64,000 bases of DNA from Streptomyces sp. NBC_00464 (GTDB taxonomy: Bacteria; Actinomycetota; Actinomycetes; Streptomycetales; Streptomycetaceae): contig NZ_CP107899.1 of NCBI RefSeq assembly GCF_036013915.1, positions 434,001 to 498,000 on the forward strand, in the 5' to 3' direction. Positions 3,118-26,512 of the stretch are shown here, piece after piece; within the stretch, counting starts at the first letter, position 1; every line of letters begins with the position of its first letter. A program made the position numbers and the translations under genes. Under the pieces are notes generated by a model. That model saw nothing but the letters and a program-made list of their open reading frames with translations, was not told the DNA's origin and did not search any database.

Positions 3118-3143
3118 ATCGAACAAGTCGAGGGGCAACTCCC

Positions 3144-4298
3144 GTGCGTATCACCGGAATCAGCACACATGTGGTCGGAACACCCTGGCGCAACCTCACC
3201 TATGTGCAGGTCCATACCGACGAGGGTCTCACCGGCGTGGGCGAGACCCGGATGCTCGGTCGCACCGATGCGCTCATCGGCTATCTGCGCGAGGCGGAGG
3301 CCAACCACATCGCCGGTTCGGACCCGTTCGCCGTCGAGGACCTGGTACGCCGGATGAAGTACGGCGACTACGGGCGGGCAGGCGAGATCGTGATGTCCGG
3401 CATCGCGGTCGTCGAGATGGCCTGCTGGGACATCAAGGGCAAGGCACTCGGCGTCCCGGTCTGGCAGTTGCTCGGCGGGAAGGTCACCGACCGGGTCAAG
3501 GCGTACGCCAACGGCTGGTACACGACCGAGCGGACCCCGGAGGCGTATCACAAGGCCGCGTCGGCGGTCGTCGCGCGCGGCTACCGGGCGCTGAAGATCG
3601 ACCCGTTCGGGACGGGCCACTTCGAGCTGGGCCAGGAGGAGACCCGGTACTCCGTATCGCTGATCGAGGCGGTCCGGGATGCCATCGGCCCGGACACCGA
3701 GCTGATGCTGGAGATGCACGGCCGTTTCAGCCCCTCGACGGCGGTGCGGATCGCCCACGAAATGGCTCCGTTCCGGCCGGCCTGGCTGGAGGAGCCGGTG
3801 CCGCCGGAGAACCTCAAGGCGCTCGCCAAGGTGGCGGGCAAGGTCGACATGCCGATCGCGACGGGTGAGCGCATCCATGACCGCATCGAGTTCCGCGAGC
3901 TCTTCGAGTCGCAGGCCGCCGACATCATCCAGCCGGACGTCGGCCACATCGGCGGCATCCTGGAGACCCGGAAGCTCGCCGCGACGGCCGAGACCCACTA
4001 CACGCTGATCGCCCCGCACAACGTCGGCGGCTCGGTGCTGACGGCTGCCAGCCTCCAGGTCGCGGGCTGCACACCCAACTTCAAGATTCTTGAGCACTTC
4101 AACGACTTCGCGGACGCCGACATCAAGAAGGTCGTGAAGGGTGCGCCGCAGGTCGACCCGGAGACCGGCTGCTTCGAGCTGTCCGACGCCCCCGGTCTCG
4201 GCGTGGAGCTCGATGTGGACGCCGCCGCCGAATTCCCGCAGCAGCAGGCCCGGTTCGACCTGTGGGCCGACGGCTGGGAGAAGAGGCAGCCCAAGTGA
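3144..4298 (+). CDS. Enolase-superfamily sugar-acid dehydratase (MR/MLE family)
   Basis: This 384-residue member of the mandelate racemase/muconate lactonizing family has an N-terminal capping domain (1-120) and a beta-barrel with the expected active-site positions: ALKID with K151, LEMHGR with E190 and H192, WLEEP with E216, TGE with E242, QPDVGHIGG with D265, and APHNVGG with H292. The E-x-H-G-R motif and second-half histidine resemble acid-sugar dehydratases such as galactonate dehydratase rather than muconate cycloisomerase. The open frame continues far upstream. The GTG at 3144 is chosen because AGGGG precedes it and family homology begins there (MRITGIST). The 3' end lies in the first copy of a 36-bp tandem repeat, and the stop overlaps the start of the dehydrogenase gene as GTGA. 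Confidence 0.85.
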   Translation: MRITGISTHVVGTPWRNLTYVQVHTDEGLTGVGETRMLGRTDALIGYLREAEANHIAGSDPFAVEDLVRRMKYGDYGRAGEIVMSGIAVVEMACWDIKGKALGVPVWQLLGGKVTDRVKAYANGWYTTERTPEAYHKAASAVVARGYRALKIDPFGTGHFELGQEETRYSVSLIEAVRDAIGPDTELMLEMHGRFSPSTAVRIAHEMAPFRPAWLEEPVPPENLKALAKVAGKVDMPIATGERIHDRIEFRELFESQAADIIQPDVGHIGGILETRKLAATAETHYTLIAPHNVGGSVLTAASLQVAGCTPNFKILEHFNDFADADIKKVVKGAPQVDPETGCFELSDAPGLGVELDVDAAAEFPQQQARFDLWADGWEKRQPK

Positions 4299-4413
4299 GC
4301 GACGGACGGCTGGGAGAAGAGGCAGCCCAAGTGAGCGACGCACGGCTGGGAGAAGAGACAGCCCAAGTGAGCGACGCACGGCTGGGAGAAGAAGCAGCCC
4401 AAGTGGGCGACGG
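4270..4413 (+). repeat. Four tandem 36-bp repeats over a stop/start junction
   Basis: Four direct copies lie end to end at 4270-4305, 4306-4341, 4342-4377 and 4378-4413, differing at only a few positions. Each copy contains the last codons of the enolase-family gene, a GAGG-like ribosome site, and AAGTG(A/G)GCGAC carrying the GTG start of the next gene. In-frame GTGs fall at 4295, 4331, 4367 and 4403. GAGG is intact in copies 1 and 2 but becomes GAGA and GAAG in copies 3 and 4. Copy 4 has GTGGG, so it lacks the upstream-frame TGA. Because 36 is divisible by three, copy-number change never breaks the downstream frame. Confidence 0.95.
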
Positions 4414-5431
4414 ACCCGCCCGCTCACGGGCGATCACGATCGACCGGCCGGGCAAGCACCGGCTGACCTCCGGACCGGTCCCGGAGCCCGGCCCCGGCGA
4501 GGTCCGGGTGCGGGTGGCCGCGGCCGGGATCTGTATGAGCGACCGGGAGGTGTACGACGGCCATCGCGACCCTGGTTACGTGCGCTACCCGGTGGTGCCC
4601 GGTCATGAGTGGTCGGGCACCGTCGAGGCGGTGGGACCCGGCGTCGATCCCGCCCTGACCGGCCGGCGCACGGTCGCGGAGGGCTTCCGTTCCTGCGGGA
4701 GCTGCGAGCGCTGCCGCAGCGGTGAGACCTCGCTGTGCACCTCGGGGTACGACGAGACGGGCTTCACCCGGCCCGGGGCCTTCGCCGACCATGTCGTGCT
4801 GCCCGCACGGCTGTTGCACCCGTTGGCCGACGACGCGGACCTGCGGGCCGCCGCACTGCTGGAGCCCGCGGCCGTGGTCGCGGCGGCGGTGCGGGCCGGG
4901 GCGCCGGAGCCGGGTGAGCGGATCGCCGTGGTGGGCGCGGGCACGCTCGGGCTGCTCGCGGTCCAGCTGCTGGCCGCGGTGTCGCCCGGGGAGCTTACGG
5001 TGATCGACCCGAGGGACGAACGGGCCCGCCAGGCGCTGCTGTTCGGGGCGAGCGAGGCCCTGGCACCCAAGGAGGCCGCGGAGGTGCACGGCCGGTACGA
5101 CCTGGTGGTGGAGACGGCCGGGGCCGCGACCACCGCGGCCGACGCCTGCCTGCTCGCGCGGCGCGGCGGCCGGGTCGTGCTCACGGGGATGTTCGCCCCG
5201 GGGGCCGTCGGCATCGACCCGGTGCACCTGTCGCTGAGCCAGCTCACGGTGCGCAGCGTGTTCGGGGCGTCCTCCGCGTCCTGGTCGTACGCGGTGCGGG
5301 CGTTCACCGCGGGGCTGCTCGATCCGGCGGCGCTGATCACGCACGAGTTCCCGCTGGAGCGGTTCGCGGAGGCCGTGGCGCTGGTCGGGGGCGGCGGCGC
5401 GGGGACGGGGAAGGTGCTGATGCGCCCCTAG
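4295..5431 (+). CDS. Zinc-binding alcohol dehydrogenase (MDR family)
   Basis: This 378-residue medium-chain dehydrogenase has catalytic zinc ligands in AAGICMSD and PGHEW, the four structural-zinc cysteines in the CGSCERCRSG..C block, and a Rossmann motif VVGAGTLGLLAVQLL. It probably oxidises a sugar or polyol with NAD(P) in the surrounding sugar-acid pathway. The first 36 or so residues are three 12-residue repeats of the type DGRLGEEAAQVS, encoded by the 36-bp tandem repeats; catalytic homology begins about residue 44. The GTG at 4295, overlapping the upstream stop, has the best ribosome site, but starts at 4331, 4367 or 4403 would give progressively shorter N-termini. Confidence 0.85.
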   Translation: MSDGRLGEEAAQVSDARLGEETAQVSDARLGEEAAQVGDGPARSRAITIDRPGKHRLTSGPVPEPGPGEVRVRVAAAGICMSDREVYDGHRDPGYVRYPVVPGHEWSGTVEAVGPGVDPALTGRRTVAEGFRSCGSCERCRSGETSLCTSGYDETGFTRPGAFADHVVLPARLLHPLADDADLRAAALLEPAAVVAAAVRAGAPEPGERIAVVGAGTLGLLAVQLLAAVSPGELTVIDPRDERARQALLFGASEALAPKEAAEVHGRYDLVVETAGAATTAADACLLARRGGRVVLTGMFAPGAVGIDPVHLSLSQLTVRSVFGASSASWSYAVRAFTAGLLDPAALITHEFPLERFAEAVALVGGGGAGTGKVLMRP

Positions 5432-5538: not shown

Positions 5539-6522
5539 ATGACCTCCGCATCCCCCGCCCCGTCCGGATCCTCCGCCGGCGTACGGCGCCCGGGTGAGCC
5601 CGCGCTCACCGCACTCGGGCTCGGCGCTCCCGCCGCAGACCCGGCCGACGCGTCCCCGCACGCCTTTCCCGACGGCGGCACCTGGCGGACCGAAGTCCCG
5701 TCCGTGGAGGGCCCCGAAGCGCTGTCCGTCGTACTGAAGGAGAGTGCGCGGCTCGACGTCCCCGTACACCGGATCAGCCAGGGCAGCGGCGTCTGGATGC
5801 TCAGTGACACCGAGATCACCGACATGGTCGAGGGCTGCGCCGAACGCGGCATCGAGCTCTGTCTGTTCACCGGTCCGCGCGGCAGCTGGGACACCGGGGC
5901 CTCCTTCCGCACCGATTCGGGCGGGGCCGGGCTGCGAGCCCGCGGCCACGACGCCCTGGCCGGCTGCGTCGAGGACGCCCTGCGGGCCTCCGCGCTGGGC
6001 GTGAAGTGCCTGCTGGTGGCGGACGAGGGGGTGCTCTGGACCCTGCACCGGCTGCGCGAACAGGGCGTACTGCCCGCCGACACGACGTTCAAGGTGTCCG
6101 CCCTGGTCGGCCCGGTGAACCCCGCCTCCTTCGCCGTGTACGAGCAGCTCGGGGCGGACTCGGTCAACATTCCGTCCGACCTGACGCTCGCCCACTTCAC
6201 CGAGATCCGGCGGGCGTCGGCCGCTCCGATGGACCTGTACATCGAGGCCCCGGACGACCTCGGCGGATATGTGCGGATGTACGAGGCGGCCGAGCTGATC
6301 CGGCGCGGCGCCCCGCTCTACCTCAAGTTCGGCCTGTCCAAGGCGCCCGGCATCTACCCGTACGGCGCCCATCTGCGCGATGTCGCCCTGGAGACGGCGC
6401 GCGAGCGGGTCCGGCGCGGCCGGCTGGTCCTGGATCTGCTGGCCCGGCACGGCGCCGACGGGAACATGTCCCCGCTGGGCTCCCGGCTGCCGGGAACCCT
6501 GCGGCGCTTCCCGGCGCGGTGA
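5539..6522 (+). CDS. TIM-barrel-like protein of sugar-acid cluster, function unknown
   Basis: This 327-residue cytosolic protein has alternating beta strands and helices that suggest a TIM barrel. Recognisable pieces are LCLFTGPRGSWD near 115, LGVKCLLVADEG near 160, ADSVNIPSDL near 215, MDLYIEAPDDLGGY near 235 and LYLKFGLSKAPG near 265. The last contains a lysine near the end of a strand, as in class I aldolases. Similar Streptomyces proteins have, as I recall, been labelled U32-peptidase-like, but I see no conclusive U32 signature. It follows the dehydrogenase in the same direction with AAAGG before the ATG. The context suggests an aldolase or epimerase step; this is inference. Confidence 0.6.
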   Translation: MTSASPAPSGSSAGVRRPGEPALTALGLGAPAADPADASPHAFPDGGTWRTEVPSVEGPEALSVVLKESARLDVPVHRISQGSGVWMLSDTEITDMVEGCAERGIELCLFTGPRGSWDTGASFRTDSGGAGLRARGHDALAGCVEDALRASALGVKCLLVADEGVLWTLHRLREQGVLPADTTFKVSALVGPVNPASFAVYEQLGADSVNIPSDLTLAHFTEIRRASAAPMDLYIEAPDDLGGYVRMYEAAELIRRGAPLYLKFGLSKAPGIYPYGAHLRDVALETARERVRRGRLVLDLLARHGADGNMSPLGSRLPGTLRRFPAR

Positions 6523-6572: not shown

Positions 6573-7424
6573 TCAGCCCGCGAAGGCCGTGCCGGGCATG
6601 CCCAGGCCGGCGTCCGGCAGGACCAGCAGCGATCCCGAGAGCGGGTGCGGTGCGTCGAGACCGGTGCGGGCGGTGGAGATGTAGAGGTCGCGCAGGTCAC
6701 GGCCGCCGAAGGCGCAGGCCGTGGGCCGTCGCACCGGCAGCTCGACGACGCGGTCCAGCCTGCCGTCGGCCGTGTAGCGGCGCACCGCGGCGCCGTCCCA
6801 CAGGGCGACCCAGACGGCCCCGTCGGCGTCGACCGTGAGGCCGTCGGGGTAGCCCGCGCCCTCCTCGACGGTCGCGAACGGGCGTCGGCCGGTGACCTGT
6901 TCGCCGTCCACGTCGAAGACGTCGATCCGGCGGGTCGGTGTGTCGATGTAGTACATCAGCCGGCCGTCCGGGCTCCATCCGGTGCCGTTGCTGCAGGCCA
7001 CCAGCGGCAGCACCCGGGTGGCCGTGCCGTCGGGGGCGACGCGGGTGAGGCTGCCGCCGACCTCCGATTCGTCGTAGCGCATGGTGCCCGCCCAGAGCGC
7101 CCCGTCCGGCGCCACCGCGGCGTCGTTCCCGCGCCGTCCCGGCTCGGCGTCATGGACGAGCCAGCGGAAGGCGCCGTCCGGGTCGTAGAGGCCGACGCCG
7201 TCGCGCAGGTTGACGACGAGGCCGCCGCCGGCCCGTGGCTTGGCCGCGCCGACATGCTGTTCGGTGGCCATGACGGTCCGCCGGCCGTCGGCCGGATCGT
7301 AGGTGTGGATGCGGGCGGAGAGGATGTCGACCCAGATCAGCCGCCCGGTGACCGGATCCCAGGTCGGACCCTCCCCGAGTGCGGCGTGCTCCCGTACGGC
7401 GACGTCGAGGCGCGGGTGGCTCAC
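6573..7424 (-). CDS. SMP-30/gluconolactonase-family lactonase
   Basis: This 283-residue six-bladed beta-propeller of the SMP-30/gluconolaconase/LRE family begins with the family hallmark LGEGPTWDPVTGRLIWVDI, which supplies the metal-binding glutamate. The NGTGWSPDGRLMYYIDT and YPDGLTVDADG segments carry the other metal-coordinating Asn and Asp residues. The expected role is hydrolysis of a sugar lactone, between a sugar dehydrogenase and an acid-sugar dehydratase. Its ATG overlaps the stop of the IclR gene (ATGA), so the regulator and lactonase are co-transcribed, convergent to the dehydratase/dehydrogenase group. Confidence 0.88.
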   Translation of the reverse strand: MSHPRLDVAVREHAALGEGPTWDPVTGRLIWVDILSARIHTYDPADGRRTVMATEQHVGAAKPRAGGGLVVNLRDGVGLYDPDGAFRWLVHDAEPGRRGNDAAVAPDGALWAGTMRYDESEVGGSLTRVAPDGTATRVLPLVACSNGTGWSPDGRLMYYIDTPTRRIDVFDVDGEQVTGRRPFATVEEGAGYPDGLTVDADGAVWVALWDGAAVRRYTADGRLDRVVELPVRRPTACAFGGRDLRDLYISTARTGLDAPHPLSGSLLVLPDAGLGMPGTAFAG

Positions 7425-22000: not shown

Positions 22001-22164
22001 TATTGGGCCGCGCTCATGCTGTGACACAGGTCATGGCGGTGTCAACGCCCAGGACGGTGATTCCTGAAGGTTGTTCAGCTTCTCCCCATCACCGACCCGT
22101 TCGGGCCCGCACCCCGCCCTCGCACCCCGTCCTCGCGCCCCGTCCTCGCGCCCCGTCCTCGCGA

Positions 22165-23166
22165 TCAGACCAGCGCCGGCACCTCGACGGTGAGCGTGGC
22201 CGGGCCGCCGTCGGCCGGCGCGTCCAGCAGGGCCGGCACCCCGAGCGGGATCGTCAGCGCGGTGGGCCCGTGCCCGAAGCCGAGTTCCTCGACGACGGGG
22301 ATGCCCAGGGGGCCGAGCCGGTCGATGAGCACCGACCGCACCCGCTCGTACGGCCCGCAGCCCGCCCAGGAACCACAGGCCACCCCGGCCACGCCGTCGA
22401 GCGCTCCGGCCCGCAGCAGCTGGGTGAGGATCCGGTCGATGCCGTACGGGTCCTCCGTGGTGTCCTCGATGACGAGCAGACCGCCGCGGGCCGACGTGCG
22501 GGCGTGCGGGGTGGCGAGGTCGGCGGCGAGCAGGCTCACACAGCCGCCGTACGTGATGCCCCGGGCCCGCCCCGGCACCAGCGCCCTGGCATCGTCGAGC
22601 CCCAGCGTCATCACGGAATCGGGCTCGAAGAGGGTGGCGCGCAGGGACTCCCGGGTCCGCGGGTCCTTCAGGAAGGTCTCCGTACCCACCATGGGGCCGT
22701 GCAGCGTGGCGAGCCCCGTCCGCAGGGCGAACGCCTCATGGAGCACGGTGATGTCGCTGTAGCCGACGAACACGTTGGGTCCGGCGGCCCGCATCGCCGA
22801 CCAGTCCACCAGATCGACCATGCGGTGTGCCCCGTACCCGCCGCGGGCGCAGATCACCGCGTCGACGGACGGATCGCACCAGGCGTCCTGGAGGTCACGG
22901 GCCCGCGCCTCGTCCGCACCGGCGAGGTATCCCAACTCCCGGTGCACATCCAGCACATGCGGCATCACGACCGGGTCGAGCCCCCAGCCGCGCAGAAGGT
23001 CGAGGCCGGGCTCCAGCCGGTCGGCGGGCACCGGTCCGCTCGGGGAGACGACGGCGACCCTGGCGCCCGCGCGCAGCCGGGCGGGACGAGTCAGTGGGGC
23101 AAGGGTCATTTCGGTCGCCGCTTCTTCAGCGGTCACTTCTTCAGCTGTCACTTCTCCAGCGTTCAC
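22165..23166 (-). CDS. S66 LD-carboxypeptidase (MccF-like)
   Basis: This 333-residue serine peptidase has VAVVSPSGPVP near 38, ICARGGYGAHRMVDLVDW near 110 and the nucleophile elbow GYSDITVLH near 140; the Glu and His of the S66 triad follow in the C-terminal domain. It removes the terminal D-residue from tetrapeptides in peptidoglycan recycling, or cleaves microcin-C-like adducts. The GTG at 23166 overlaps the S9 peptidase stop (GTGA). The first 19 residues are five-residue repeats (VTAEE type) encoded by a 15-bp tandem repeat, and family homology begins near Met20 (23109), which may be the ancestral start. Confidence 0.85.
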   Translation of the reverse strand: MNAGEVTAEEVTAEEAATEMTLAPLTRPARLRAGARVAVVSPSGPVPADRLEPGLDLLRGWGLDPVVMPHVLDVHRELGYLAGADEARARDLQDAWCDPSVDAVICARGGYGAHRMVDLVDWSAMRAAGPNVFVGYSDITVLHEAFALRTGLATLHGPMVGTETFLKDPRTRESLRATLFEPDSVMTLGLDDARALVPGRARGITYGGCVSLLAADLATPHARTSARGGLLVIEDTTEDPYGIDRILTQLLRAGALDGVAGVACGSWAGCGPYERVRSVLIDRLGPLGIPVVEELGFGHGPTALTIPLGVPALLDAPADGGPATLTVEVPALV

Positions 23167-23174
23167 TTCTTCAG
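23121..23174 (-). repeat. 15-bp tandem repeats over a second stop/start junction
   Basis: Three full 15-bp copies (23121-23135, 23136-23150, 23151-23165) and a partial fourth (23166-23174) read leftward as GAAGAAGTGA-type units. In-frame GTG codons for the S66 gene occur at 23166, 23151 and 23136, each followed by A, so GTGA recurs three times. The S9 gene ends at the first one. The unit is divisible by three, as in the 36-bp repeat at 4270-4413. Confidence 0.9.
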
Positions 23175-25148
23175 TTCCAGCCGCGGCACGTCGGTCCGGT
23201 CGATCCCGAACGTCTGCACGTACAAGGAGAGTTCGGACTCCAGTGCGCTGATCATGGTCTCGGCGCGCCGGAATCCGTGCCCCTCACCCGGGTACGTGAG
23301 ATAGGCGTGCGGAATGCCGCGCCCCTCGACCGCGGCCAGGAACCGCTCGCACTGCACGGGCGGGCAGATCGGGTCGTCCTCCCCCTGGAGCAGCAGGAAG
23401 GGGGTGGTGAGCCCGGCGGTGCGGCTGATCGGCGACCTGTCGCGATAGCGGTCAGGGACCTCGGCAAGGGGGCCGACCAGCGACTCCAGGTACTGCGACT
23501 CGAAGTCGTGGGTCTCGTCGGTGCCCCAGCCCGTGAGGTCGAGGATGGGATAGATGATCGTGCCGCAGGCGTAGACGTCGGTCCCGGTCAGCGAGGCGGC
23601 GGTGGTCCATCCCCCGGCGCTGCCGCCACGGACGGCGAGCCGGCGGGGGTCGGCGGTGCCCTCTGCGGCAAGCGCGCCGGCGACGGCCGCGCAGTCCTCC
23701 ACATCGACGACGCCCCACTGTTCGCGCAGCCGGTTGCGGTAGGACCGGCCGTAGCCGGTGGAGCCGCCGTAGTTGACCTCGGCGACGCCGATGCCGCGCG
23801 AGGTGAAGTAGGCGATCTCCAGGTCCAGTACGAGCGCGGCATGGCCGGTCGGGCCGCCGTGGGCCCACACCACATAGGGCGGCAGCTCGCCCTCGGGGCC
23901 GGTGCGGTCGGGGCTGTGCGGCGGGTAGACCTGGGCGTGGATCTCGCGGCCGCCGGGTCCGGTGAAGGTGCGGACGACGGGCTCGGGGTAGTACGCCGGG
24001 TCGACCGCGTCCTCGTGCGGTGCGCCGATGATGCGGGTGTGCCCGGTCGAGGTGTCCAGCTCCACGATCTCGTACGCGCTGTGCGGACTCGCCGCGATAC
24101 CGATGACGCGGCTGCCCTGCACGGCGAGGGTTTCGGCCCATTCGGTCCAGGGCCCGGCGATGTCGACGAGGTCGCCCGACTCCGGGTCGAGGATGCCGAG
24201 GGTGGTGGAACCCTTGCCGTGGATCGCGGCGATCAGCCCGTTGTCCAGCGGGCAGAACCAGTTGAGCCCGATCTTCCAGAGCGGTCCGGCGAACTCTTCG
24301 TCACGGAAGCAGAGTTCGACGGCTTCCCGCTGCGGGTCGGCGCGGTAGAGGTTCCACCACCCGCTGCGGTCACTGGCGAACAGCAACTGCCCGCCCGCGT
24401 CCCACCGGATCTGCGGTACGGATTCCTCCGGGCCGCCCACGAAGCTCCGGGCGTCGTGGAACGTGCCGTCCTCGCCGATGTCCGCGAGCATCACCTCGGT
24501 ACCGTCCCACGGCATCCGCGGATGGTCCCAGGCGATCCAGGCCGCACGCCTCCCGTCGGGCGACACCTCGGGGCCGGTGACGAACCGGTGCCGGTCGTCG
24601 GAGAGTTCGCGTATCGCGGACCGGTCACCGGCCGCCGATCCGTCCAGCGGCACGGCGGCGATGACGCGGCGCAGGTCGGTCGGGCCCTCGCCGGTGAACT
24701 CCTCCAGGACGCACCAGACCTCGCCCTCGGCGCCTCGGTCCGGATGCAGCCGGGGGTCGACCCAGCGCAGTCCGCCGCCGACGGCGGAGACGGGGGTGAG
24801 CGGCCAGGGTTCACGGGGCCCGTCGGGCGCGTAGGCGTACAGCCGCTGGTCGTCGAAGTGCACGAAGACGATCAGCGGGCCGCCCTCGGCCCGCCCGGTG
24901 CCGGCCCACGGCCTGCCGCCGTACTCGATGACCCGGCTGCGGGCGTTCCACGGCGCGGGCAGCTCCGCCGTGGTGCCGTCCGGCAGTCTGCGGACCAGGG
25001 CGCGCCGGCCGGCCTGGGCCGGCCGGGGCTCCGTCCACCACAGCTCGTCGCCGACCGCTCCGACGTACTCGGGGCGGCCGTCGCGGGAGGCGGCCAGCGC
25101 GGCGTCGATCGGTGACGGCCAGCTTCCGTAGGCCCCTGTGGATACCAT
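23163..25148 (-). CDS. S9-family prolyl oligopeptidase-like serine peptidase
   Basis: This 661-residue cytosolic peptidase has an N-terminal beta-propeller (about 1-390) and a C-terminal alpha/beta-hydrolase domain with VRGGSAGGWTT (Ser nucleophile), LLQGEDDPICP (Asp) and YPGEGHGFR (His). It probably trims small peptides or acyl-peptides. The ATG at 25148 is chosen because GGGGGA precedes it by about 8 nt and homology starts MVSTGAYGSWPSPI; the open frame upstream is non-coding. It sits between the M20 and S66 peptidase genes and is coupled to S66 by GTGA. Confidence 0.88.
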   Translation of the reverse strand: MVSTGAYGSWPSPIDAALAASRDGRPEYVGAVGDELWWTEPRPAQAGRRALVRRLPDGTTAELPAPWNARSRVIEYGGRPWAGTGRAEGGPLIVFVHFDDQRLYAYAPDGPREPWPLTPVSAVGGGLRWVDPRLHPDRGAEGEVWCVLEEFTGEGPTDLRRVIAAVPLDGSAAGDRSAIRELSDDRHRFVTGPEVSPDGRRAAWIAWDHPRMPWDGTEVMLADIGEDGTFHDARSFVGGPEESVPQIRWDAGGQLLFASDRSGWWNLYRADPQREAVELCFRDEEFAGPLWKIGLNWFCPLDNGLIAAIHGKGSTTLGILDPESGDLVDIAGPWTEWAETLAVQGSRVIGIAASPHSAYEIVELDTSTGHTRIIGAPHEDAVDPAYYPEPVVRTFTGPGGREIHAQVYPPHSPDRTGPEGELPPYVVWAHGGPTGHAALVLDLEIAYFTSRGIGVAEVNYGGSTGYGRSYRNRLREQWGVVDVEDCAAVAGALAAEGTADPRRLAVRGGSAGGWTTAASLTGTDVYACGTIIYPILDLTGWGTDETHDFESQYLESLVGPLAEVPDRYRDRSPISRTAGLTTPFLLLQGEDDPICPPVQCERFLAAVEGRGIPHAYLTYPGEGHGFRRAETMISALESELSLYVQTFGIDRTDVPRLELKK

Positions 25149-25168
25149 GTTCAATTCCCCCGAGCGGT

Positions 25169-26512
25169 TCAGGCGGTACGCAGATAGTGGTCCAGGACCC
25201 GGACGCCGAAGTGCAGCGCCTCGACGGGGACACGCTCGTCCACGCCGTGGAAGAGGGCCTGGTAGTCGAAGCCGAAGGGCAGCTTCAGCGGCGAGAAGCC
25301 GTAGCCGGTGATGCCGAGCCGGGAGAACTGCTTGGCGTCGGTGCCGCCGGACATGCTGTACGGGACAACGTGGCCGTCCGGGTCGAACTGCTCCACCGCG
25401 GCACGGAGTTTGGCGTACGTGGGTGAGTCGACCGGCGCCTGGAGCGGCACCTCGCGGTGGTGGAACTCCCAGTCGACCGAGGGGCCGGTGAGCCGGTCCA
25501 GGGTGGTGCGGAACTCGTCCTCGCCGCCGGGGACCATCCGGCCGTCGATGTAGGCGGTGGCGTGGCCCGGGATCACGTTGACCTTGTAACCGGCTTCCAG
25601 CATCGTCGGGTTGGAGCTGTTGCGGACGGTCGGCGCGACGAGCTCGGCGGCCGGTCCGATCTTGCCGAGGAGTTCGTCCACGTCGAAGCCGGGGGCGTCG
25701 AGGTCGGGGTGGATGCCGTGCAGTGCGGCGATCTCGGTGAGTGCGGCGCGGACGGTCGGGGTGAGGCGCACCGGCCATTCGTGGGCGCCGATCCGGGCGA
25801 CGGCGGCGGCCAGCGTGCTGACCGCGTTCGCGTGGTTGACCTTGGAGCCGTGGCCCGCCTTGCCGTGAGCGGTGAGCTTGAGCCATCCGGTGCCGCGCTC
25901 GCCCGCCGCGATGGGATAGAGCGGCATGTTCGGTCCGGCGTGGAAGGTGAAGGCGCCCGACTCGCTGATGCCTTCCGTACACCCCTCGAAGAGTGCGGCG
26001 TGCCGGTCGGCGAGGAAGCCGGAGCCGTCGTCGGCGCTGGCCTCCTCGTCGGCGGTGTACGCGATCACGATGTCGCGGCGGGGGCGGATGCCGGCCCTGG
26101 CCCAGTACCGGACGACGGCGAGGACCATCGCGTCCATGTTCTTCATGTCGATGGCGCCGCGGCCCCAGACGACTCCGTCGCGCACCTCGCCGGAGAAGGG
26201 GTGCACGGTCCAGTCGTCGGCCTCGGCGGGCACCACGTCCAGGTGGCCGTGGACCAGGAGGGCGTCCGCGGCGGGGTCGGTGCCCGGGATCCGGGCGACC
26301 ACGTTGGTTCGGCCGGGGGTGCGCTCCAGCAGCGCCGGTTCGAGCCCCGCGGCGGCCAGCCGCTCGGCGACGTACTCGGCCGCGGGACGTTCGCGGCAGT
26401 CGCCGCCGCCCCGGTTCGTGGTGTCGATGCGGATCAGTTCGGAGGTGAACGTCACCGATTCGTCGAGCGCGAGCTCGTCGACGCTGTCCTTGGGGGTGCT
26501 CGCCTCAGCCAT
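25169..26512 (-). CDS. M20/M25/M40-family metallopeptidase
   Basis: This 447-residue cytosolic di-zinc enzyme carries LLVHGHLDVVPAE (His/Asp ligands, about 85-97), WGRGAIDMKN, TADEEASADDGSGFL (Glu general base and Glu ligand), NVIPGHATAYIDGRMVPG in the lid domain, and a late SGGTDAKQF and FHGVDERV histidine segment. Relatives include carboxypeptidase G2, succinyl-diaminopimelate desuccinylase and ArgE, so substrate is not fixed. The start overlaps the end of the M55 gene by 8 bp, and it is followed by the S9 gene after 20 bp. Confidence 0.88.
   Translation of the reverse strand: MAEASTPKDSVDELALDESVTFTSELIRIDTTNRGGGDCRERPAAEYVAERLAAAGLEPALLERTPGRTNVVARIPGTDPAADALLVHGHLDVVPAEADDWTVHPFSGEVRDGVVWGRGAIDMKNMDAMVLAVVRYWARAGIRPRRDIVIAYTADEEASADDGSGFLADRHAALFEGCTEGISESGAFTFHAGPNMPLYPIAAGERGTGWLKLTAHGKAGHGSKVNHANAVSTLAAAVARIGAHEWPVRLTPTVRAALTEIAALHGIHPDLDAPGFDVDELLGKIGPAAELVAPTVRNSSNPTMLEAGYKVNVIPGHATAYIDGRMVPGGEDEFRTTLDRLTGPSVDWEFHHREVPLQAPVDSPTYAKLRAAVEQFDPDGHVVPYSMSGGTDAKQFSRLGITGYGFSPLKLPFGFDYQALFHGVDERVPVEALHFGVRVLDHYLRTA

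Follow-up and report, generated by a model that had tools for sequence, protein, structure and literature searches.

Minisatellites, or variable-number tandem repeats (VNTRs), are built of units of about 10-100 bp repeated head to tail. MIRUs (mycobacterial interspersed repetitive units), with units of 40-100 bp (PMC2734929), lie at gene starts with -4 nt overlaps and, in the available text of two reports, appear as a dispersed and seemingly mobile family that carries a coupled reading frame of its own (PMC12548453, PMC2734929). Actinobacterial repeats linked to expression sit before the gene or in promoters, not in a leader, in the cases that the accessible parts of PMC2734929 and PMC12817950 describe. 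Direct repeats near start codons are also found in Beggiatoaceae, where the TAACTGA elements, as far as the accessible sections of PMC4679880 describe them, are 7-bp units, mostly intergenic, placed upstream of the start at many loci, and are not copies of a gene junction.

Here we report that in the window, the whole 64,000-nucleotide stretch of DNA analysed, four head-to-tail copies of a 36-bp unit span the GTGA stop/start overlap that leads from a dehydratase gene to a dehydrogenase gene (Table 1). Our reading, to which we give a probability of about 0.77, is that the array is an in-frame minisatellite, formed by tandem duplications tolerated across a coupled junction in an unconstrained leader. 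Like other in-frame minisatellites and VNTRs, it has a unit that is a multiple of three, encodes a repeated peptide and varies in copy number between species; it differs from them in straddling a gene overlap, each copy repeating a ribosome site and a start, and copies 1-3 also a stop.

The closest analogue is the mycobacterial MIRU, with which the array shares tandem repeats at an actinobacterial gene start and, in GTGA 4295-4298, the -4 nt geometry. Yet it is not a MIRU: its unit is local, is 36 bp long, is confined to one genomic site and contains no independent reading frame, so that three of the four MIRU features tested from the available descriptions (dispersal, a unit of 40-100 bp and an own frame) are missing, while the position at a start with an overlap is present. 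Copy 1 is an ordinary case of termination-reinitiation at a -4 nt (NTGA) overlap, of the kind kept in 116 of the 129 junctions compared below, whereas copies 2 and 3 have the junction sequence but no gene ends in them, and copy 4 lacks the TGA. Phase-variable contingency repeats likewise place tandem repeats at a translation start, but a 12-codon unit cannot switch the frame at any copy number. A search of open-licence PubMed Central found no description of a Streptomyces coupled junction repeated in tandem.

Tandem Repeats Finder reports the array at 4269-4415 (period 36, 4.1 copies, 94% matches, score 259), and the four full units, at 4269-4412, lie within a base of where the initial annotation had placed them (4270-4413). 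Each copy combines the codons for the final dehydratase residues, a stretch resembling a ribosome site, and a GTG, which overlaps a TGA in copies 1-3. The structural claims of that annotation stand: the dehydratase ends in copy 1; the dehydrogenase has four possible starts, the in-frame GTG codons 4295, 4331, 4367 and 4403; the unit is 12 codons long and its frame is open through all four copies, giving a repeated 12-residue N-terminus and a copy number whose changes never shift the frame; GAGG is intact in copies 1 and 2 and degraded in copies 3 (GAGA) and 4 (GAAG); and copy 4, which reads GTGG in place of GTGA, has lost the stop of the upstream frame. No position separates copy 1 from copy 2; relative to this pair, copy 3 has 2 substitutions in 36 positions and copy 4 has 3 in 36, and between copies 3 and 4 there are 3 differences. 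Three of the four substitutions among copies alter the dehydrogenase protein.

By score the array ranks sixth among the 331 found in 1.66 Mb of its own genome, and is therefore far beyond chance. Across the whole genome (8.96 Mb in 3 contigs) the unit has 4 matches with at most 3 mismatches, all of them inside the array. That an error of assembly made the four copies is very improbable, because they bear distinct substitutions and the array is only about 147 bp long, in a genome of 3 contigs.

Table 1. The repeat array, its flanking genes and two further junction arrays of the same genome (window positions, except for the last row).
Feature	Position	Strand	Description
Upstream gene: enolase-superfamily sugar-acid dehydratase, galactonate-dehydratase-like	3138..4298	+	5' end tentative; TGA 4296-4298
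Repeat copy 1	4269-4304	+	Dehydratase C-terminus, GAGG, GTG 4295 overlapping TGA 4296-4298; sole copy in which the gene ends
Repeat copy 2	4305-4340	+	Identical to copy 1; GAGG intact; in-frame GTG 4331
Repeat copy 3	4341-4376	+	GAGG to GAGA; in-frame GTG 4367
Repeat copy 4	4377-4412	+	GAGG to GAAG, GTGA to GTGG; in-frame GTG 4403
Downstream gene: zinc-dependent medium-chain (alcohol-dehydrogenase-type) dehydrogenase	4295..5431	+	Pfam ADH_N 2.2e-26, ADH_zinc_N 1.1e-14
LD-carboxypeptidase-type (Peptidase_S66-type) gene	22165-23166	-	Overlap 23163-23166
Second junction array, 15-bp unit x 3.6	23121-23174	-	Crosses the 4-nt overlap 23163-23166; three in-frame GTGA copies
Prolyl-oligopeptidase-type (Peptidase_S9-type) gene	23163-25982	-	Overlaps the LD-carboxypeptidase-type gene
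Third junction array, 9-bp unit x 4 (GTGAGCGAG)	L192, C1:1820001-1840000	-	Repeats GTGA at a called 4-nt overlap

The upstream gene matches Pfam MR_MLE_C (5.1e-66) and MR_MLE_N (3.2e-17), and its best NCBIfam model, PRK14017 galactonate dehydratase, scores 281.2 bits against a cut-off of 311; the assignment is therefore family-like only. The dehydrogenase is 378 aa long from the overlap start 4295 and 342 aa from 4403, residues 1-43 being the repeated leader. Its best three full-length protein matches (among the best 120 of 3658) are 342 aa long, in a protein set clustered at 90% identity, where strain variants of the dehydrogenase are invisible. None of 5033 candidates matched residues 1-60 at E 10 in a protein search. 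The named loci nearest to the window are from Streptomyces. At E 0.001 neither Pfam nor NCBIfam matches the 327-aa reading frame that follows the dehydrogenase (5539-6522, +).

We compared 162 junction loci: the best 80 of 536 relatives, 30 best-match loci from 392 genomes, 48 stretches hand-picked among the matches listed from the 392-genome search, and 4 loci of the window's own genome. Three of them (L040, L075, L120) lack one gene end, and the remaining 159 represent 129 distinct regions, window included. An in-frame dehydrogenase start overlaps the dehydratase stop by 4 nt in 116 of the 129 (88 GTGA, 27 ATGA and 1 TTGA), a count that ignores kinship, species being non-independent samples, and that scores L033 as uncoupled through a misread alignment gap, its sequence having an ordinary GTGA overlap. 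L033 was excluded from the array counts, which cover 128 loci and 116 coupled loci. Judged by sequence comparison, the -4 nt overlap of the two genes is old.

From the overlap start to the conserved core, the dehydrogenase leader is 1-102 codons long in the 116 coupled junctions (median 5), reaching at least 20 codons in 17 of them, and relatives have no common leader sequence past the first residues. The six closest sampled relatives (L005, L006, L018, L089, L008, L051), which are 86-94% identical to the window in the compared stretches, each have one copy and a 7-codon leader, such as VSGTPAR or VSDEPAR. Copy number therefore varies between species, with four copies in the window vs one in these six. 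Of 395 genomes, the window's own alone contains a copy-to-copy signature, the pattern spanning two adjacent copies; it was absent from the 394 others, 237 of them of the same genus; the collections hold one genome per species, and genomes very near the window's own may be absent from them. The initial annotation had set against its own reading a fixed copy number among relatives together with a dehydrogenase that always starts at 4403: the fixed number does hold in the sampled species, no other of which has this 36-bp array, and the start does not, the comparison favouring 4295. At L022 (Streptomyces sp. G44) the dehydrogenase leader has 102 codons, with degenerate repeats. L063, L067, L073 and L074 have no overlap; their dehydratase stops lie about 340-400 nt from the dehydrogenase core, with in-frame starts close to the far end of this spacer.

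Single-copy closest relatives, together with a signature found in the window's own genome alone, make a one-copy ancestor the most likely earlier state, from which three copies would have been added on the window's lineage. Replication slippage is possible as the origin of the array, but the edges of the single copy share just 3 bp (GAC) at a 36-bp shift. The first duplication would therefore have had no obvious slip site, and would have needed very short homology or an illegitimate event; later copies could have arisen by slippage or unequal exchange. Non-identical copies differ by 6-8%, similar to the 6-8% by which the window's flanking sequence differs from that of the closest sampled relative. 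Fast turnover of copy number should give a more uniform array, and the divergence between copies does not suggest it, while the identity of copies 1 and 2 would allow one recent event. Two CGACGG words were also considered as the slip site of the duplication and rejected; their spacing is 32 bp instead of 36 and would not result in the unit.

Relative to the dehydratase stop, the four GTG codons lie at -4, +32, +68 and +104 nt, and the -4 nt overlap of start 4295 is unchanged at any copy number. Duplex energies of the ribosome sites, calculated over 16 nt with what we take to be the sequence of the 16S tail, are -6.4, -6.4, -3.5 and -2.0 kcal/mol for copies 1-4, a graded series; the median for overlap starts at 116 loci, over the same 16 nt, is -6.5. 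Over 22 nt the energies are -9.9, -9.9, -7.5 and -7.5, so that copies 3 and 4 retain sites that are weakened but not abolished. The dehydratase frame has no ATG, GTG, TTG or CTG in the 180 nt past 4298, and with no start codon in copies 2-4 no ribosome is expected to terminate there. These copies had been regarded as multiplied working junctions; they would not be expected to act as such, since no gene ends in them, and what they add is 36 residues and three in-frame GTG codons to the dehydrogenase frame.

Work on coupling distance bears on the choice among these starts. In the available excerpts, a stop-start gap of about 20 nt left almost no coupling in six gene pairs (PMC10666635), and of two starts in one phage pair the nearer alone was used (PMC12548453). 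The latter source also cites a study in which spacing of up to +25 nt was without effect on coupling and another in which coupling decreased gradually from +50 to +350 nt; the literature, as represented there, is therefore not unanimous. We infer that 4295 is most likely the main start of the dehydrogenase. Ribosomes ending the dehydratase would restart at GTG 4295 and make the 378-residue enzyme, and GTG 4331, which has the same ribosome site, and to a lesser extent 4367 and 4403, may yield minor shorter forms. No switching would be expected, and the adjustable switch envisaged in the initial annotation is not supported, the overlap start being kept at any copy number and the extra GTGs lying as far away as +32, +68 and +104 nt. 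The leader is predicted to be unstructured: in an AlphaFold2 model residues 1-40 have a pLDDT of 28-33 and no predicted structure precedes residue 43. That model is poor overall (mean pLDDT 63, 19 sequences), and low confidence in the leader is therefore weak evidence of disorder.

If the array is an in-frame minisatellite in an unconstrained leader, duplication would have left intact both the dehydratase protein and the overlap start 4295, which lie in copy 1; as the dehydratase ends there and the unit is 12 codons, duplication would merely have added 36 residues to a variable leader. The open frame and the intact GAGG of copies 1-2 would equally fit selection for several starts. Copies 2-4 might then be extra ribosome entry sites, with copy number setting the dehydrogenase-to-dehydratase ratio and slippage varying that number between cells or strains. 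Consistent with this role in tuning expression, the ribosome site is the same in copies 1 and 2 and weaker in 3 and 4, all four GTGs are in frame, and repeat copy number is tied to expression elsewhere in Actinobacteria, at least in the parts available of the two sources (Mtb-fpg1, PMC2734929; promoter repeats, PMC12817950). The role is possible, but we hold it to be unlikely, with several points against it: whatever the copy number, the overlap start stays intact; the alternatives to it sit +32 to +104 nt off, within the dehydrogenase frame; each of the six closest sampled relatives has a single copy; and the 2-3 substitutions per 36 bases that separate copies 3 and 4 from copy 1 speak against fast turnover.

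Selection might instead act on the peptide, the leader VSDxRLGEExAQ serving as a functional N-terminal extension, for example in oligomer contact, stability or interaction with the dehydratase. Four copies without a stop or frameshift, a unit of 12 codons and the presence of long leaders in several species (at least 20 codons at 17 of the 116 coupled loci) are consistent with such a function, which we nevertheless consider quite improbable: the leaders of relatives have a median of 5 codons and no sequence in common past the first residues, three of the four substitutions among copies change the dehydrogenase protein, the search with residues 1-60 was empty at E 10, and the leader is predicted, albeit in a poor model, to be unstructured. 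A dispersed MIRU-type element inserted at the start codon would have the position and overlap geometry seen here, as MIRUs do in the available text of PMC12548453, and yet is hardly credible for a unit that consists of local gene-end sequence, is absent from the rest of the genome and carries no small open frame of its own in the dehydratase register.

On the in-frame minisatellite reading, tandem multiplication of a coupled-type gene junction can leave both reading frames unbroken, and repeats and novel N-terminal residues accumulate in the leader just past overlaps of this type. For start-site annotation, long repeated leaders are probably translated and not necessarily functional. The array can also be thought of as a natural construct for asking how a terminating ribosome picks a near vs a far restart site.

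Similar in-frame expansions appear to have arisen at dehydratase/dehydrogenase junctions and at other -4 nt junctions of Streptomyces. Of 128 loci, 12 have an array scoring at least 50 in the junction or spacer. Three of the 12 are uncoupled (L063, L067, L136); at the nine coupled loci the unit is a multiple of three in every case (9/9). Such arrays cover 11.2% of the bases of junction and leader, taken from 33 nt before the stop's end up to the core. In 150-nt bins, the coverage is 0-0.5% for the six on the upstream side and the two nearest on the downstream side, up to 2.7% farther into the dehydrogenase, and 6.7% at 1050-1200 nt past the core start, at about the gene end. The NTGA itself is covered at 7 of 116 coupled loci (L001, L022, L026, L037, L045, L061, L088), and the first 60 nt are overlapped at 9 of 116. 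Seven equal windows inside both genes have arrays at 1, 0, 0, 0, 0, 6 and 1 loci (n = 116, 116, 116, 116, 116, 115 and 95), and the internal dehydrogenase window with arrays at 6 of 115 loci counts against our reading. With the score lowered to 40, 10 of the 17 leaders of at least 20 codons hold an array. By eye, a GAGG-type site, TGA and GTG repeated as one unit were seen in the window's array only.

A second junction family is present in the same window, where an IclR-type regulator and an SMP-30/gluconolactonase-type gene (IclR/SGL) overlap at 7421-7424 (-). This junction is coupled at 36 of 38 loci, the leader of its second gene is 1-84 codons long, and arrays occur, as a raw count, in or near that leader at 4 of the 36 coupled loci. 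Variable, repeat-built leaders are therefore not special to the dehydratase/dehydrogenase junction.

Within 1.66 Mb of the window's own genome, a codon-usage caller found 148 coupled -4 nt junctions and probably misses many; it replaced a stricter caller, which gave 36 junctions without that at 4295. Arrays lie over the overlap at 3 of the 148 junctions vs 6 of 1036 positions 100-320 nt away on either side (Fisher p 0.09), or at 2 of 147 when the 36-bp array is left out (p 0.26), and they cover 1.3% of random positions; the excess at junctions is therefore not significant. The first 60 nt carry arrays at 5 of 148 junctions vs 2.3% of random positions. Because 263 of the 331 arrays in this 1.66 Mb have a period divisible by three, in-frame units are the rule of the genome and no mark of selection at the junction. 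We offer as speculation, and with considerable doubt, that in Streptomyces coupled -4 nt junctions repeatedly act as nurseries of in-frame minisatellites, in which the stop and the coupled start would be locked in the first copy while the rest expands in threes, any expansion that includes the ribosome site leaving graded back-up starts that could later shift the level or the start of the downstream protein.

Two other arrays of this genome cross a called overlap and repeat its GTGA (Table 1). A further candidate, at L185:6922-6999, was rejected as a junction array, its unit being 29 bp. Just beyond the end of the Peptidase_S66-type gene, at 22108-22163, lies a 13-bp tandem repeat of 4.3 copies, with a unit that is not a multiple of three.
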